Positions 28,637-35,189 of a stretch of DNA of 64,000 bases are shown here, piece by piece. The DNA comes from Thiosocius teredinicola. GTDB taxonomy: Bacteria > Pseudomonadota > Gammaproteobacteria > Chromatiales > Chromatiaceae. The notes under the pieces were generated by a model. It saw nothing but the letters and a program-made list of their open reading frames with translations, did no database searches and was not told the DNA's origin. The first letter of the stretch is position 1. The number at the start of each line of letters is the position of its first letter. Made by a program: the position numbers and the translations under genes. Location of the stretch: assembly GCF_002009425.1 (NCBI RefSeq), contig NZ_CP019936.1:4451297-4515296 (forward strand), in the 5' to 3' direction.

Positions 28637-28900
28637 ATGAAGATGTCGACCCTTTTGCTGACTGGCGTTCTTGCCCTGGGCATCGGCCTTTCTGGTAATG
28701 CGATGGCTCATGGCGATCGCGGCTACCGAGATTACGGCCACGGCTGGAAGCACGAATACCGCGACCATCACCGCCACGGCCACCATCGCCGTCACCATCA
28801 CGAACGTCGCCACTGGCGCCACGAGCGTCACCGTGACTACGGGCGCCGCCACGACCACGACAGCTGGTACGGCCTGCACCTGTTCCTCGGCGGCCATTGA
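28637..28900 (+). CDS. Small secreted histidine-rich protein
   Basis: An 87-residue protein with a signal peptide (MKMSTLLLTGVLALGIGLSGNAMA). The mature 63 residues are extremely rich in His, Arg, Tyr and Asp (for example HHRHGHHRRHHHERRHW), suggesting periplasmic metal binding or buffering, or a structural role. Low complexity prevents a family assignment. A GGAG ribosome site (TAGGAGAGC) lies about 8 bp upstream of the ATG. It follows the ABC permease gene by 113 bp on the same strand and ends at a convergent boundary with the TAXI gene. No transporter specific for a metal is recognisable next to it. Confidence 0.7.
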   Translation: MKMSTLLLTGVLALGIGLSGNAMAHGDRGYRDYGHGWKHEYRDHHRHGHHRRHHHERRHWRHERHRDYGRRHDHDSWYGLHLFLGGH

Positions 28901-30335: not shown

Positions 30336-31025
30336 TCAATCCAGCATCAAAGCCGTCAGCTCATCGAGATGCGAGATCTCGACATCTGCCGGCGTCACAT
30401 CTTCCGGCCATCGGAGATTATCGCGATTCACCCACACCGTCGGCATGCCGACGTCACGCGCTGCCTGTACATCGCGCAGCGGATCGTCGCCGACATGCAC
30501 AAAGGCATGCAGCGGCAAGCCCGTGTGCTCGCTGGCCGCCTCGAACATCGCCGGGTGCGGTTTCGCGGCACCGACATCGGCCGCGGTCAGCGAAAGATCG
30601 AAGCTCGCGTGCAACGGCGTGTGTTGGATCTGCGAGTTACCGTTGGTGACCGACACAAGGACGTATCGCCCCCTCAGCCTGGCCAGCGCTTCGATCACTT
30701 CATCGAACGGTGTGACAAGATTGCGTGCCGCGCGAAACACGTCGCTCGCCTGATCCGCCAGTTGCGCCGGATATCCCTGCTCGACCAACAATTCGAGCAG
30801 CGATTGGCGACGAACCTCGGTCAGGTCGTGCGCGATATCGGCGCGTGATTGGCCCAGCGCTAGGCGGTGAGCGCGCAGTTCCTCGATCGCGTACCGCTCG
30901 GTCAGCGCCGGCGCATTACCCGCCAGCCAATCGTAGCAACGTTGCTCTGCGGCACGAATGACAGGCGCGCAAGGCCATAAGGTGTCGTCCAGATCGAAGC
31001 AGATGGCGCGGACCTGATCGAACAT
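30336..31025 (-). CDS. HAD-family hydrolase (YjjG/HAD-IA type)
   Basis: A 229-residue cytoplasmic phosphatase-like protein. HAD motifs are complete: CFDLDDTLW (nucleophile and acid/base Asp), SVTNGN (motif II), KPHPAMF (motif III Lys) and HVGDDPLRDVQAA (motif IV). The helical cap region between residues 20 and 95 places it in subfamily IA. The ATG at 31025 lies 2 bp after the stop of the nucleotidyltransferase gene, so they are coupled; a longer upstream frame overlaps that gene and is rejected. Substrate unknown. Its position suggests that it may dephosphorylate a product of the kinase/nucleotidyltransferase operon, which is inference. Confidence 0.9.
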   Translation of the reverse strand: MFDQVRAICFDLDDTLWPCAPVIRAAEQRCYDWLAGNAPALTERYAIEELRAHRLALGQSRADIAHDLTEVRRQSLLELLVEQGYPAQLADQASDVFRAARNLVTPFDEVIEALARLRGRYVLVSVTNGNSQIQHTPLHASFDLSLTAADVGAAKPHPAMFEAASEHTGLPLHAFVHVGDDPLRDVQAARDVGMPTVWVNRDNLRWPEDVTPADVEISHLDELTALMLD

Positions 31026-31027
31026 CG

Positions 31028-32131
31028 TCAGCCGGGTGTCGCATCGATGGTGGGTGTGGCGTCGTGTTTCTTGAACGACTTTTGCGCCAGGTGGCGCAAC
31101 AGCATCGGCAGCGGCATCCGTACCCAGTGAGAGCGCACGAACAACAACCACGAAGCAAAACCGGTGCGTCGAAGCCCGGGGCGCAGCGGCGCCAGTGTCT
31201 GCTTGATCAACAGGCGCATGAGGCCGCGGATCGGCGCGACCGGTGCAAAGCGCTGCACGCCGGCATGGAAATCGTCGGATGTTTCCAAGGCGAGCAGACG
31301 CTGCGCCGTATCGACCGCGTAGAACAAGGGCAAACCACACCCCAGTTGCGCGGCGCGCGCCAGCAACGCCGCCTCGAAATCAGGCTGTGCGACACTGAAG
31401 TGACTGAGCAGATCGACGAAATCCACCACATCGCGCAGCCCGCCACGCAGCTCATCGTTCATGAACAGATGGACGGCGTTGTGCAGCAGCATATCGGTCG
31501 GCGCCAGGACTGACAGACCTGGCGATATCTCGACGGCAGATTCCCACAACTTGTGCGCATCGATCTTGATGGTACTGACCGGCGGGGCAAGGTTGTGATG
31601 GATGTCGACTTCGGTCTCGCGCAGGCGGTGGATCAGTGGCGGTACTTCGTGCATCCAGTCGTGATAGTAGTGCTGGTCATAGGTATCGAAGTCGCCGTTC
31701 AACTGCCAGCCGCTACGCTTGAGCAGTGCCTCGACATCCTCGATGCGTTCGCGTGGCACCAACAGGTCGACATCGGAGAGATTTCGCCAGGCGGCGGACG
31801 GCAGTTCGGCCGCCAAGTAGGCGACGCCTTTCATTGCGATCAGCGGACAATCGATGGAAACAAGGGTGCGTCGCACCTGCTCGAGCTCACGCCGTGCCTG
31901 GTTCTGCACATAACGCGTCTGCACCAGGGCGCCGCGCAGCTGATCGACGATGCGGGGCGGCACAGCGTCCAGCAGCCCGGTCTTTTCCAGAAGAAAATAG
32001 CAGCGACCCATCAACCGCGCCTGGCGTACTTGCGGCAGGAACAGGTTCCATTGCCCGGCTGTCCACTGCGTCACGCAAGCGGGCTCGCGCAGCATGGCCA
32101 ACAGGAGATTGCCGGAGACTACCGAACCCAT
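31028..32131 (-). CDS. NTP_transf_5-type nucleotidyltransferase of the HprK-related locus
   Basis: A 367-residue protein of the uncharacterised nucleotidyltransferase family (NTP_transf_5). The core reads LIAMKGVAYLA followed by RNLSDVDLLVPRERIEDVEALL, the minimal nucleotidyltransferase signature with the metal-binding DVD pair, then EVDIHHNL with the third acidic residue, and LLHNAVHLFMND. These proteins commonly occur beside HprK-related kinases and PqqD-like proteins, as here. The catalytic acids are present, so it may transfer NMP or another nucleotide group to a protein, lipid or small molecule. It starts 4 bp after the kinase gene ends and its stop is 2 bp from the HAD start. Confidence 0.85.
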   Translation of the reverse strand: MGSVVSGNLLLAMLREPACVTQWTAGQWNLFLPQVRQARLMGRCYFLLEKTGLLDAVPPRIVDQLRGALVQTRYVQNQARRELEQVRRTLVSIDCPLIAMKGVAYLAAELPSAAWRNLSDVDLLVPRERIEDVEALLKRSGWQLNGDFDTYDQHYYHDWMHEVPPLIHRLRETEVDIHHNLAPPVSTIKIDAHKLWESAVEISPGLSVLAPTDMLLHNAVHLFMNDELRGGLRDVVDFVDLLSHFSVAQPDFEAALLARAAQLGCGLPLFYAVDTAQRLLALETSDDFHAGVQRFAPVAPIRGLMRLLIKQTLAPLRPGLRRTGFASWLLFVRSHWVRMPLPMLLRHLAQKSFKKHDATPTIDATPG

Positions 32132-32135
32132 GCCG

Positions 32136-33026
32136 TTAATCCGCCGCCCCTACCAAACCTTTCAGAACAGGCACTGCGCGGTGCAGATTGCTGTAGGTGA
32201 AGCGATAGCAATCGACCTGATCAATCAACGCGCAGACGGCGCGGAACGCGGTCTCACCCAACAGCTTGTAATTGAAGCTGTTGAACGCGAGGTTGCGAAA
32301 CGCCTCGGCCTTGTCGAGCGGCACCAGGTTCTCAGCCGCGCCTTGTGTGTAGGTGGGAAACACCAGCCAGCGAGGTGACGCCGTTTGCGCCTGCATCGCC
32401 AGGCTCGTCTTGTCCGGTTGGAGATGTCGAACACGGCCCTTGCGCGTTTTAGGGTAAGTAGGCCCCAACGGCGCATCGGCGTCGAAATCGAGTATCGCCT
32501 CGATCGACGCGTTCTTCAGCGGTATTGCGCGCGGCATCGGGAGCAAGCGCATGATTTCGGGCTGCAGCAACCCGAATTCGTCTGACAACAGCCGCCCGCC
32601 GCGCAACGAGAGCGCAGCAGACAACGTACTCTTTCCAGACCCCGGATTGCCGGGAAGGATCAACGCCTCGTCACCAAAAGCGATCGTTCCCGCGTGCAGC
32701 ATCAGGTACCGGTGGGCGCTGGTGGCGACACACCAGTTGAGGCCCCATTCGTACATCGGAAATGCATGATCGAGCGGCTGCGGCTCGAAGGGGCGCATAC
32801 CGTCGATCTCGAAGACCGCCTGTGGGCGCAACCAACGACGCAGCGATTGCGGCTGCCGGATCACGACCTCATAGTCGTAGATCTGCTCCGCGCCCGACTG
32901 AATCACCGGACCATAAAACGCGCTGACTGTGTCGATAAACACCGGATCAGTGGCGTGCAGCCCCACCCGAAAGGGACCTGCATCGAGCGTTATGGGGCCG
33001 TTGCCTGAGGAAAAACTTGCAGTCAC
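32136..33026 (-). CDS. HprK-related kinase A
   Basis: A 296-residue protein related to the catalytic core of HPr kinase/phosphorylase. The P-loop is PGNPGSGKSTL (Walker A at 126-133), preceded by LHAGTIAFGDE (H111) and followed by LLSDEFGLL (D149, E150), the same order as in HprK. Later blocks are MPRAIPLKN and KTRKGRVRHL. It lacks the HprK N-terminal domain and the HprK signature region, and no PTS HPr gene is near. The family occurs in gene neighbourhoods with a PqqD-like protein and a nucleotidyltransferase, the arrangement seen here; its substrate is not known. It is 9 bp downstream of the PqqD-like gene. Confidence 0.88.
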   Translation of the reverse strand: MTASFSSGNGPITLDAGPFRVGLHATDPVFIDTVSAFYGPVIQSGAEQIYDYEVVIRQPQSLRRWLRPQAVFEIDGMRPFEPQPLDHAFPMYEWGLNWCVATSAHRYLMLHAGTIAFGDEALILPGNPGSGKSTLSAALSLRGGRLLSDEFGLLQPEIMRLLPMPRAIPLKNASIEAILDFDADAPLGPTYPKTRKGRVRHLQPDKTSLAMQAQTASPRWLVFPTYTQGAAENLVPLDKAEAFRNLAFNSFNYKLLGETAFRAVCALIDQVDCYRFTYSNLHRAVPVLKGLVGAAD

Positions 33027-33035
33027 TGCTGCATC

Positions 33036-33362
33036 TTATGCCATTTCTGCGCGACCGATTTCGATCAACTCGGCCTCGGCCAGGAATTTCAGCGTGGCAA
33101 TGATCTGGTCAGTTTGCTGCGGCGCAATCTCACCGGCCTCTTCGCCGAGGATTGTCGCCAGCAGTTCGGCTGCCGTACGCGGCTGCGCATCGACCTGCTG
33201 AAGCAGCATGGCGGGTAGTTCGTTGAGAAGGTGGGTTTCGCCCGAAACCGGGTCGAAGACAGCGACAAACTGATCGGAGTCTGACCAGACCAACGGCTGG
33301 TCACTTTCCCGCCACCAAACCGCCTCAGCGAGCCCGGCAGCGGGAAACCCGCTGAGCGTCAT
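33036..33362 (-). CDS. PqqD-family peptide chaperone of the HPr-rel-A system
   Basis: A 108-residue protein with the PqqD-like winged-helix layout: WSDSDQFVAVFDPVSGETHLLNE (beta hairpin), LPAMLLQQV (helix), PRTAAELLATIL and DQIIATLKFLAEAELIEI. PqqD proteins bind a leader peptide and present it to a modifying enzyme. Here the partner would be the HprK-like kinase or the nucleotidyltransferase rather than a radical-SAM enzyme, none of which is present. The ATG overlaps the stop of the preceding Tat-protein gene by 4 bp (ATGA), so the probable substrate and its chaperone are co-translated. Confidence 0.82.
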   Translation of the reverse strand: MTLSGFPAAGLAEAVWWRESDQPLVWSDSDQFVAVFDPVSGETHLLNELPAMLLQQVDAQPRTAAELLATILGEEAGEIAPQQTDQIIATLKFLAEAELIEIGRAEMA

Positions 33363-33970
33363 CCGCGAGACAGCGTGTAGTTCGGCGGAACCGCTCCGGC
33401 GATTGAGGTCAGACAGGTGCCGGTGATGCCTTGATATCCAGTCTGGATACGAGCCTCCGGCACGGTGCCGTCGATGACGAAATCGGTGTTGTCGTCGATC
33501 GGGTGTCCGACAACGGCGAACAGGCCTTCCTGGCGCGGAATATCCTCGACGCAGGCCTTGCCTTCACCGTCTTGCAGAATCATCAGGGTGGTGTCGGTCG
33601 GATTGAACGTGACGAAAGGCGTCGCGTCATTGCCGGTAAAATCGAGATAACCGCTGTCCGCCTGGACGATGACCTTGTGCAATGAGGGACAGGCCGTGTT
33701 CGGCACTTTGGTGCCGGTCGACGTATCCCAGTAGTAGCGACGCTCATAGGCGTAGCAGATCTCGCCCTCAGGGCAGGGATCATTGAGGTGCGGCCAATTG
33801 GACTGGTGCCAATTAGAAATGTTCTCCCCCGTGTCGAGGCACTGAAATGCACTCTGGTTGGCCAGTGCCGAACCGGGACGCAGGGTCATTACGACCGGAA
33901 CCGTCGACAGCGCCTTGAACAGGCGGCGACGTTTATTCGAAATCTTTTCGTTGTGAGCTGCCATTGCCAC
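33359..33970 (-). CDS. Secreted Cys-containing protein with Tat-like signal; candidate substrate of the HPr-rel-A operon
   Basis: A 203-residue protein. The N-terminus has a Tat-like motif (KRRRLFKAL, about 13-21) and a hydrophobic stretch ending TLRPGSALA, so export is likely. The mature part has no family I recognise; it contains seven Cys (for example DPCPEGEIC, NTACPS, GKACVED, GTCLTS) that could form disulfides, and several Asp/Thr-rich beta-type segments. The GTG start at 33970 is supported by AGGAG 5 bp upstream; an ATG two codons later is an alternative. It is the first gene of a tight operon with PqqD-like, HprK-like, nucleotidyltransferase and HAD genes, which makes it the obvious candidate target. 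The target role is inference. Confidence 0.7.
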   Translation of the reverse strand: MAMAAHNEKISNKRRRLFKALSTVPVVMTLRPGSALANQSAFQCLDTGENISNWHQSNWPHLNDPCPEGEICYAYERRYYWDTSTGTKVPNTACPSLHKVIVQADSGYLDFTGNDATPFVTFNPTDTTLMILQDGEGKACVEDIPRQEGLFAVVGHPIDDNTDFVIDGTVPEARIQTGYQGITGTCLTSIAGAVPPNYTLSRG

Positions 33971-34205: not shown

Positions 34206-35189
34206 TTACGACATGCGAGACAGCACCCGCATTTCGACGAAATCAGCCAACGCCCGCATGGACGGCCTGCGGGCGCCCACGTCAACGATGTATTGCAGGG
34301 TGCGTGGGATATCGGCGAGGTAGCCGGGCTTTCCGTCACGGTGATTGAGCCGCGCGAAAATGCCCGAAGCCTTCAGGTGGCGCTGCACACCCATCAGGTC
34401 GAACCACGCCAAGAACGTATCGTCGCCTACATCGATCAGGCCCTCGGAGCGCAGGTCCTGGGCGAACTCTGAGGCCCACCGATCAACCTGCTCGCCCGGC
34501 CACCGCACGTAACAGTCACGCAGCAGGGAGACGAGATCGTAGGTCGGCGCGCCGGCAACTGCATCCTGAAAATCGATCACACCCGGATTATGCCGGTCCA
34601 CGACCATCAGGTTGCGCGAGTGGTAATCACGATGGACGAATACCCGGGGTTGCTCCAGCGCACTTTCGGCCAGCACATCGAATGCCGAAGTGAGCATCTT
34701 CTGCTCACGCGAATCCAGTTCCAGTTCGAGGTGTGTCGCCAACAACCAGTCCGGGAATAACGCCATCTCACGGCGCAACAGCGTTTCATCATAGACCGGC
34801 AGCCCGTCGCTCGAAGCCTTTGCTTGCAACTGCAGAAGCGCCTGCAGCGCATCGGCGTAAAGCTTTTCGACGCTGTTTGCCGTCAAGACATCCAGATAGG
34901 CCGTCGAACCGAGATCCTCGAGCAGCAGGAAGCCTTGATTCAGGTCCTGCTCGAGCACGCGCGGCACATGCACGCCGGCCGATTGCATGATCGCTGCGAC
35001 TTTGACGAAAGGCGCGCAGTCCTCCTTGTCCGGCGGGGCGTCCATCGCGATCCAGGTCGAACCGTCGGTTTTGGTCACACGGAAGTAACGGCGGAAACTC
35101 GCATCCGATGAGGCAGGTGCGATCGATTCGTAGGTAAGGCAGCAGGATTGCCGCAGCCACTGTTCCAGCAGTTGCAAACGCTCGGGCAT
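34206..35189 (-). CDS. amgK: AmgK-like aminoglycoside-phosphotransferase-fold sugar kinase
   Basis: A 327-residue cytoplasmic kinase. Catalytic motifs are VFVHRDYHSRNLM (HxDxxxxN) and VIDFQDAVAGAPTYDLVSLLRD (metal Asp). Overall length, the N-terminal ASSDASFRRYFRV glycine-poor ATP loop and the position divergent from lptD match AmgK, the anomeric MurNAc/GlcNAc kinase of peptidoglycan recycling in pseudomonads and many gammaproteobacteria. There the uridylyltransferase MurU normally follows directly. Here no murU follows; the next gene downstream, after 235 bp, belongs to the HPr-rel-A operon. Its start overlaps the long upstream frame of lptD but not the lptD start chosen here. Confidence 0.85.
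   Translation of the reverse strand: MPERLQLLEQWLRQSCCLTYESIAPASSDASFRRYFRVTKTDGSTWIAMDAPPDKEDCAPFVKVAAIMQSAGVHVPRVLEQDLNQGFLLLEDLGSTAYLDVLTANSVEKLYADALQALLQLQAKASSDGLPVYDETLLRREMALFPDWLLATHLELELDSREQKMLTSAFDVLAESALEQPRVFVHRDYHSRNLMVVDRHNPGVIDFQDAVAGAPTYDLVSLLRDCYVRWPGEQVDRWASEFAQDLRSEGLIDVGDDTFLAWFDLMGVQRHLKASGIFARLNHRDGKPGYLADIPRTLQYIVDVGARRPSMRALADFVEMRVLSRMS

Follow-up and report, generated by a model that had tools for sequence, protein, structure and literature searches.

A twin-arginine leader protein and its RRE, kinase and nucleotidyltransferase partners: a candidate tailoring cassette in Thiosocius teredinicola

The window analyzed here is a stretch of 64,000 nucleotides from the gammaproteobacterium Thiosocius teredinicola (contig NZ_CP019936.1, positions 4,451,297 to 4,515,296), whose genome is a single contig of 4.79 Mb. 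It carries five genes, all on the minus strand, which a reading made from the sequence alone had described as a tight operon with an overlap of 4 bp followed by gaps of 9, 4 and 2 bp; both the coordinates and the gaps are confirmed. Read along that strand, these encode a secreted protein of 203 aa (33359..33970); a PqqD-family protein (33036..33362), whose start overlaps the stop of the preceding gene as ATGA; an HprK-related kinase A (32136..33026); an NTP_transf_5 nucleotidyltransferase (31028..32131); and a YigB-like HAD phosphatase (30336..31025, with its ATG at 31025). The first of these genes has a GTG start at 33970, with an alternative in-frame ATG at 33964. We favor, with some reserve, an interpretation of the first four as a tailoring cassette for an exported protein, guided by a recognition element (RRE) of the kind that serves ribosomally synthesized and post-translationally modified peptides (RiPPs), with every physical step in it being inferred.

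The candidate substrate consists of a leader (residues 1-37; 33860..33970) with the sequence KRRRLFKALSTVPVVMTLRPGSALA and a hypervariable mature part containing 6 Cys residues. The leader presents the features of a substrate of twin-arginine translocation (Tat), namely the twin Arg (residues 14-15), a hydrophobic stretch and an AxA site (35-37), and the source genome encodes TatC and type I signal peptidases. Within this predicted signal sequence, the segment TVPVVMTL (residues 23-30; 33881..33904), of the form Px[V/I/L]xTL, is the proposed RRE-docking strand, whereas Ser40 (33851..33853), the predicted Ser3 of the mature protein (ALA|NQS), is the proposed phosphorylation site. No Pfam or NCBIfam family matches the protein at E<=0.1. 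Its type, which we term A, is characterized by AxA|xxS followed by a Cys, and in 18 chosen members the RR, P25, A35, A37, S40, C44 and C186 are all invariant, the Ser being present in 18/18. Within the genus, the mean pairwise identity is 72.1% for the leader as against 23.3% for the mature part (8 proteins), with the kinase at 64.7% (6 proteins), the transferase at 57.5% (4) and the PqqD-like protein at 35.8% (6). The expected conservation of the signal-region pattern is borne out, and it does not extend to the cargo; at the sequence level, a conserved leader preceding a divergent mature part is as in RiPP precursors.

As for the enzymes, the PqqD-like protein scores 45.5 bits against TIGR04353 (cut-off 35), and an 18-row PqqD profile matches the RREs of lasso peptide systems, TfuB1 (6jx3, E 0.0013) and TbiB1 (5v1u/5v1v, E 0.0044); by these matches it is a lasso-type RRE. 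The kinase scores 344.5 bits against TIGR04352 (cut-off 200), and its P-loop (GNPGSGKST) is intact, as had been claimed; G129, G131, K132, S133, T134, D149, E150, K171 and K196 are invariant among 15 aligned kinases. The transferase scores 166.4 bits against PF14907 (cut-off 31.2) and retains the earlier noted DVD metal pair (SDVD), with R116, D120, D122 and D176 invariant among 13 aligned sequences; its profile has no match among PDB sequences at E<=1.

The recurrence of these genes was examined across 144 loci: the window together with L033-L058 (27 loci, from 93 relatives, 24 of whose genomes are above the TIGR04352 cut-off); 80 named loci (the best 80 among 537 relatives, hence skewed toward near kin, with no recomputed TIGR04352 scores); and 41 genomes above that cut-off from an even sample of 369 of the class, with four loci shared. 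Removal of identical kinases left 137 loci, and that of L055 (truncated) and of L056 and L057 (weak relatives) left 134, of which 128 are evaluable, with at least 1 kb upstream; among the six cut short upstream, L167 still shows the leader. A hidden Markov model (HMM) detects a twin-arginine leader protein near the kinase in 124 of the 128 evaluable loci, and inspection by eye reveals it in a further three (L120, L153, L156); the model was trained on 19 of the counted leaders, and their exclusion gives 105/109. Before deduplication, leader matches of at least 8 bits were found near the kinase in 38/41 class, 74/80 named and 23/27 relative loci. The PqqD profile matches near the kinase in 133/134 distinct loci (missing in L184), none of these being 4 kb or more away, and the transferase profile in 130/134. 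By tblastn, NTP_transf_5 lies no more than 5 kb from the kinase in 136/144 loci and immediately downstream in 121/144. The prediction of the sequence-only reading that such a leader protein would always lie beside the HprK-related kinase A and its PqqD partner thus holds as near-constancy. An initial picking of PqqD by a loose pattern (137/144 loci) was rejected, with several picks plainly wrong, and replaced by the profile count; tblastn with the window PqqD-like protein reaches just 61/144.

The HAD protein behaves differently. Its best NCBIfam match, YigB, is at 116.1 bits, under the cut-off of 225, and HAD matches occur in only 12/144 loci, of which ten come after the transferase and share its orientation and two (L040, L072) are near but inverted. 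The ten represent 8 distinct loci, all from the genus of the window (one cut by a contig end), which is also the genus of the inverted L040. Hence, we reject it as a component of the system; it is a same-direction neighbor at the level of the genus, and its proposed handling of a phosphorylated intermediate finds no support.

The association also holds in the reverse direction. A 21-row leader profile was run against the 369 class genomes, which are related to one another and from which 9 of its rows were drawn; it yields 51 matches at E<=1e-4, of which 36 are no farther than 3 kb from HprK_rel_A. The leader is present in 36/41 kinase-positive as against 7/328 kinase-negative genomes. Nine of the 15 remaining matches share a stretch with another HprK-like kinase (L195, L197, three in L199, two in L200, L202 and L205), two (L196) are in the same genome as L197, one (L201) is in that of L202, two (L203, L204) are in genomes with HprK_rel_A elsewhere, and one (L198) is in a stretch examined that has no kinase. 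The source genome has a single match, in this operon. The recurrence of the leader near the kinase in 124 of the 128 evaluable loci, or 105/109 without the training loci, is beyond chance. As a separate observation, L204:4905-6101 (minus strand) encodes a type-B leader protein (see below) with no kinase in the stretch examined, and its genome, G351, has HprK_rel_A elsewhere; a second substrate acted on in trans is possible.

The cargo falls into distinct classes. In 122 unique loci with a leader, the pattern SxxxSxxxS is found in 74, AxAxxS in 34 (34/48 of those outside the former class) and neither in 14, the Ser content of the mature parts being 8.7% for comparison. The type-B proteins display CxxSGxxSGNxS followed by a PGYW...HAVAALLNA domain, with R27, R28, P48, S58, S62 and S66 invariant in 20 chosen members; the secreted domain of L163:3907-4551 and its relatives is of this kind and has no Pfam or NCBIfam match above cut-off. 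This extends to 11 proteins drawn from both large substrate classes, none of which has such a match. The type-A structure model is poor (predicted local distance difference test, pLDDT, 58.5), and a search of the PDB with it gave nothing at E<=0.001; the type-B model has a mean pLDDT of 74.7 and a confident core of 80 residues at 90 or above, with no PDB match by Foldseek. Mapped on the kinase tree (107 loci), the substrate class changes 3 times, where 200 shuffles average 28.0 changes, and 33/34 of the AxAxxS class fall inside one clade of 45 rows that includes the window. This agreement is suggestive only, because the genes are linked.

The closest known system is the family of linear polyphosphorylated peptides (LPPs) of the Bacillota (Popov et al., Nat Commun 2026; PMC13381572). 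In that study, the LPP core genes include a discrete RRE, an HprK-like kinase and an NTP transferase, just as at the present locus; the precursors of 35-200 aa likewise have a conserved N-terminal leader and a variable C-terminus; and the kinase LppK phosphorylates Ser3 of a core starting AQS, comparable to the predicted mature start NQS in the window. The differences are also clear. The window precursor is 203 aa, those of the genus reach about 250 aa, and Cys residues are conserved; its leader is a twin-arginine signal lacking the Tyr, and the LPP leader pattern YxxPxVLxHQxIxFETxxS (PMC13381572) is represented only by STVPVVMTL, with neither the Tyr nor the C-terminal part. The LPP clusters encode a SipW-like (archaeal-type) signal peptidase (PMC13381572), whereas none lies beside the window operon, and the one TIGR02228 match in the source genome, at C1:1218612, is below cut-off and far from the window. 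For the MsbA-like transporter of LPPs, such an exporter cluster is near 10/137 of our loci, the window itself not having been searched for one. Further, LPPs are described as restricted to Bacillota (PMC13381572), whereas the present system is from Pseudomonadota. Hence, we see it as operating like the LPP pathway but do not file it as LPP, for want of a SipW-like peptidase and of the complete leader motif.

A comparable set of a B1-type RRE, an HprK-like kinase and a nucleotidyltransferase is known from the lasso peptides paeninodin and pseudomycoidin (PMC9266682). In the latter, a Ser is phosphorylated by PsmK, and the hexoses on this phospho-Ser are the work of PsmN, whose exact chemistry that review leaves open; in lasso peptides of this type the phospho-Ser is C-terminal (PMC9266682), whereas that proposed here is at the mature N-terminus. 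The lasso B2 peptidase PF13471 has no match in the source genome at E<=0.001, and an Asn-synthetase-like cyclase is absent from the five operon genes, no genome-wide search for it having been made. Both the window kinase and the PqqD-like protein are members, above cut-off, of the HprK-rel-A system (TIGR04352/TIGR04353), whose NCBIfam names give no substrate; to this our analysis adds a substrate family, a leader and a transferase partner. The systems centered on the DUF2063 RRE and the DUF2282 precursors use tailoring enzymes different from those of the window operon. They resemble it in that RiPP precursors with an N-terminal export signal have an RRE partner, and differ in the signal being of the Sec type and in that no specific RRE motif is reported in the available parts of their description (PMC12710340). 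A literature search, made largely among openly available papers, found nothing on the HprK-related kinase, TIGR04352, TIGR04353, HPr-rel-A or the combination of HprK, PqqD and nucleotidyltransferase, and nothing relevant on PqqD with twin-arginine and RiPP. Likewise, two papers on RRE mining, PMC12710340 among them, contain no mention of kinase, nucleotidyl or HPr, and the exosortase literature has none of HprK among the matches listed.

A group of short relatives, of 57-149 aa, has the leader anatomy SRRxFLKK..YxxPx[I/V/L]TL...AxA..GS. In 17 chosen leaders, the G and S just after the AxA are invariant, and a Tyr version of the RRE motif, YxxPx[I/V/L], lies within the Tat-like signal in 16/17 (F in the other); 11/17 share a stretch with an HprK-like kinase. 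The loci, such as L199:5653-7178 (minus strand) and also L195, L197, L200, L202 and L205, have one to three short precursors each; all six have an HprK-like kinase and 4/6 a PqqD protein. By sequence, these look like an undescribed RiPP-type family. A search with their leader in 299 genomes of the phylum returned 2 weak matches, making the group rare in such a sample.

At the sequence level, the present analysis thus establishes the four-gene team, the two-way co-occurrence, the combination of a conserved leader and a hypervariable cargo, the assignment of the RRE and the invariant Ser. On this basis, we advance the following mechanism. In the secreted protein, the Tat-type signal would double as a RiPP-like leader. 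In the cytoplasm, the PqqD-family RRE would bind the Px[V/I/L]xTL segment and offer the residues just past the future cleavage site to the HprK-related kinase A. This kinase, by analogy to LppK, would then (poly)phosphorylate the mature Ser3, and NTP_transf_5, by analogy to PsmN, might cap the phosphate with a sugar or nucleotide. The tagged and probably folded protein would exit via Tat, with a general signal peptidase cutting off the leader. That the cassette has the secreted protein as its dedicated substrate is, in our view, very probable, and export by the Tat route appears quite probable, with binding of the leader by the RRE only slightly less so; phosphorylation on Ser3, going by its Bacillota analog, has somewhat better than even odds, and the capping of the phosphate remains a tentative suggestion. 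The sequence-only reading had the PqqD-like protein presenting the substrate to the enzymes; the lasso-type sequence of this RRE and the modification of core Ser3 in the Bacillota analog are consistent with that part, the role of the HAD enzyme falling away. Where it had left the choice of kinase or nucleotidyltransferase, we propose that the kinase acts first, on the Ser by the predicted signal-peptidase site, and the transferase on the phosphate.

Several observations weigh against this proposal. On the side of the leader, the Pfam and NCBIfam Tat models do not match that of the window, the curated Tat models matching L179, L182 and two short precursors weakly and below threshold. LPP and lasso leaders bind their RRE through the motif [Y/W]xxPx[L/V/I/F/A] (PMC13381572); while 87/124 HprK_rel_A-linked leaders have a Pro with a hydrophobic residue two places on, this Pro is missing in 37/124, and the Tyr/Trp is absent at P-3 in 87/87 of the Pro-bearing leaders. 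On that of the target, the 74 loci with SxxxSxxxS and the 14 with neither pattern imply that the AxAxxS context is not universal. Further, L078 has the PqqD and the kinase and no leader protein was found there, the sole evaluable locus of this kind; no visible effect followed from the deletion of lppN in the LPP study (PMC13381572); and matching histories are no proof of interaction, because genes of the same operon are inherited together. We also rejected an apparent co-variation between an RRE Asn (at the position of LppB N33 in our own alignment, made from the residues named in PMC13381572) and the leader Pro (32:1 vs 43:32, p=1e-5): on the kinase tree it comes down to 2 independent pairs on well-supported branches, which lends no support, and it is excluded from the evidence.

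Alternative readings account for parts of the same evidence. Proofreading chaperones of Tat substrates, such as TorD and DmsD, provide one precedent. Were the PqqD-like protein to mask the signal sequence in this fashion, with the kinase controlling when this chaperone lets go and not marking the cargo, the position of the RRE on the signal sequence itself would follow naturally, and the 4-bp overlap of the two genes in the window and the Tat-like leader in nearly all evaluable loci would fit. However, the nucleotidyltransferase, present in 130/134 loci, and the invariance of the Ser that follows the cleavage site would then have no explanation, and in sets of RRE, HprK and NTP transferase with tested chemistry it is the peptide that is modified (PMC13381572, PMC9266682); we consider this reading unlikely. 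The hexoses attributed to PsmN (PMC9266682) also raise the alternative of a protein glycosylation cassette, in which a phosphorylated or nucleotide-activated sugar, produced by the kinase and transferase, is placed on the exported protein and the RRE brings the cargo to the transferase alone. Among the 28 largest neighbor clusters, a sugar-epimerase-like one occurs in 21/137 and a glycosyltransferase-like one in 10/137 loci, these two being named by eye, but such loci remain a minority, and the HprK-like kinases of tested function act on peptide Ser (PMC13381572, PMC9266682). We see this as a little more unlikely still.

The genetic linkage that tempers the tree comparison leads to a further alternative, that the secreted protein is a mere linked neighbor and no substrate, for operon linkage by itself can yield co-inheritance. 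Yet, its gene is retained nearby on the opposite strand in L036, L039, L095, L097 and L131, leaders of this kind accompany other HprK-like kinases too, and in G351 (L204) a leader protein is found away from the kinase, which makes this alternative improbable. Finally, the operon kinase has a distant similarity to HprK/P, matching the HPr kinases weakly (3tqf, E 0.005), and could be construed as a variant HPr kinase regulating carbon metabolism with incidental neighbors. However, TIGR00679 (HPr(Ser) kinase/phosphatase) does not match it at E<=0.1 and detects a true HPr(Ser) kinase elsewhere in the source genome (319 bits), and the PqqD and leader proteins are near-constant neighbors; accordingly, we hold this to be very improbable.

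Returning to the RRE-guided tailoring of an exported protein, a Tat signal that is also an RRE-binding leader, coupling the export of a folded protein to RRE-guided Ser phosphorylation and perhaps glycosylation, has in our estimate a little under an even chance. If true, one sequence would serve as both export signal and enzyme-recruitment tag, and such coupling would be found in about one in nine of the sampled class genomes (41/369). RiPP-style tailoring would then reach from short peptides, through the shared leader, to entire secreted proteins some 100 to 250 residues long, and RRE-guided phosphorylation would be widened from the peptides of Bacillota to the Tat-exported proteins of Pseudomonadota. 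For the pair of HprK-related kinase A and PqqD, the gain is a specific family of substrates, together with a candidate residue for modification and a mechanism that can be tested.

A few minor observations pertain to the operon and its surroundings. A promoter scan found none, a plasmid search returned no match to the secreted protein, and PADLOC models matched none of the five operon proteins at E<=0.01 (0 families), giving no link to anti-phage defense. The source genome also encodes an HprK-related kinase B (TIGR04355, 344.8 bits) at G000:C1:4207706-4208797 (L066:5707-6798, minus strand). In four other loci, a PqqD-like N-terminal part is fused to an HprK-like kinase in proteins of 377-402 aa (L060, L063 and L064 by HMM, L062 by eye). 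Upstream of the operon, the window encodes an AmgK-like sugar kinase (34206-35189, minus strand), with amgK matches in 21/144 loci in both orientations. Downstream, on the opposite strand (28637-28900, plus), lies a gene for an 87-aa His/Arg-rich protein with a signal-like N-terminus, and locus L047 likewise has a His/Tyr-rich open reading frame downstream on the opposite strand.

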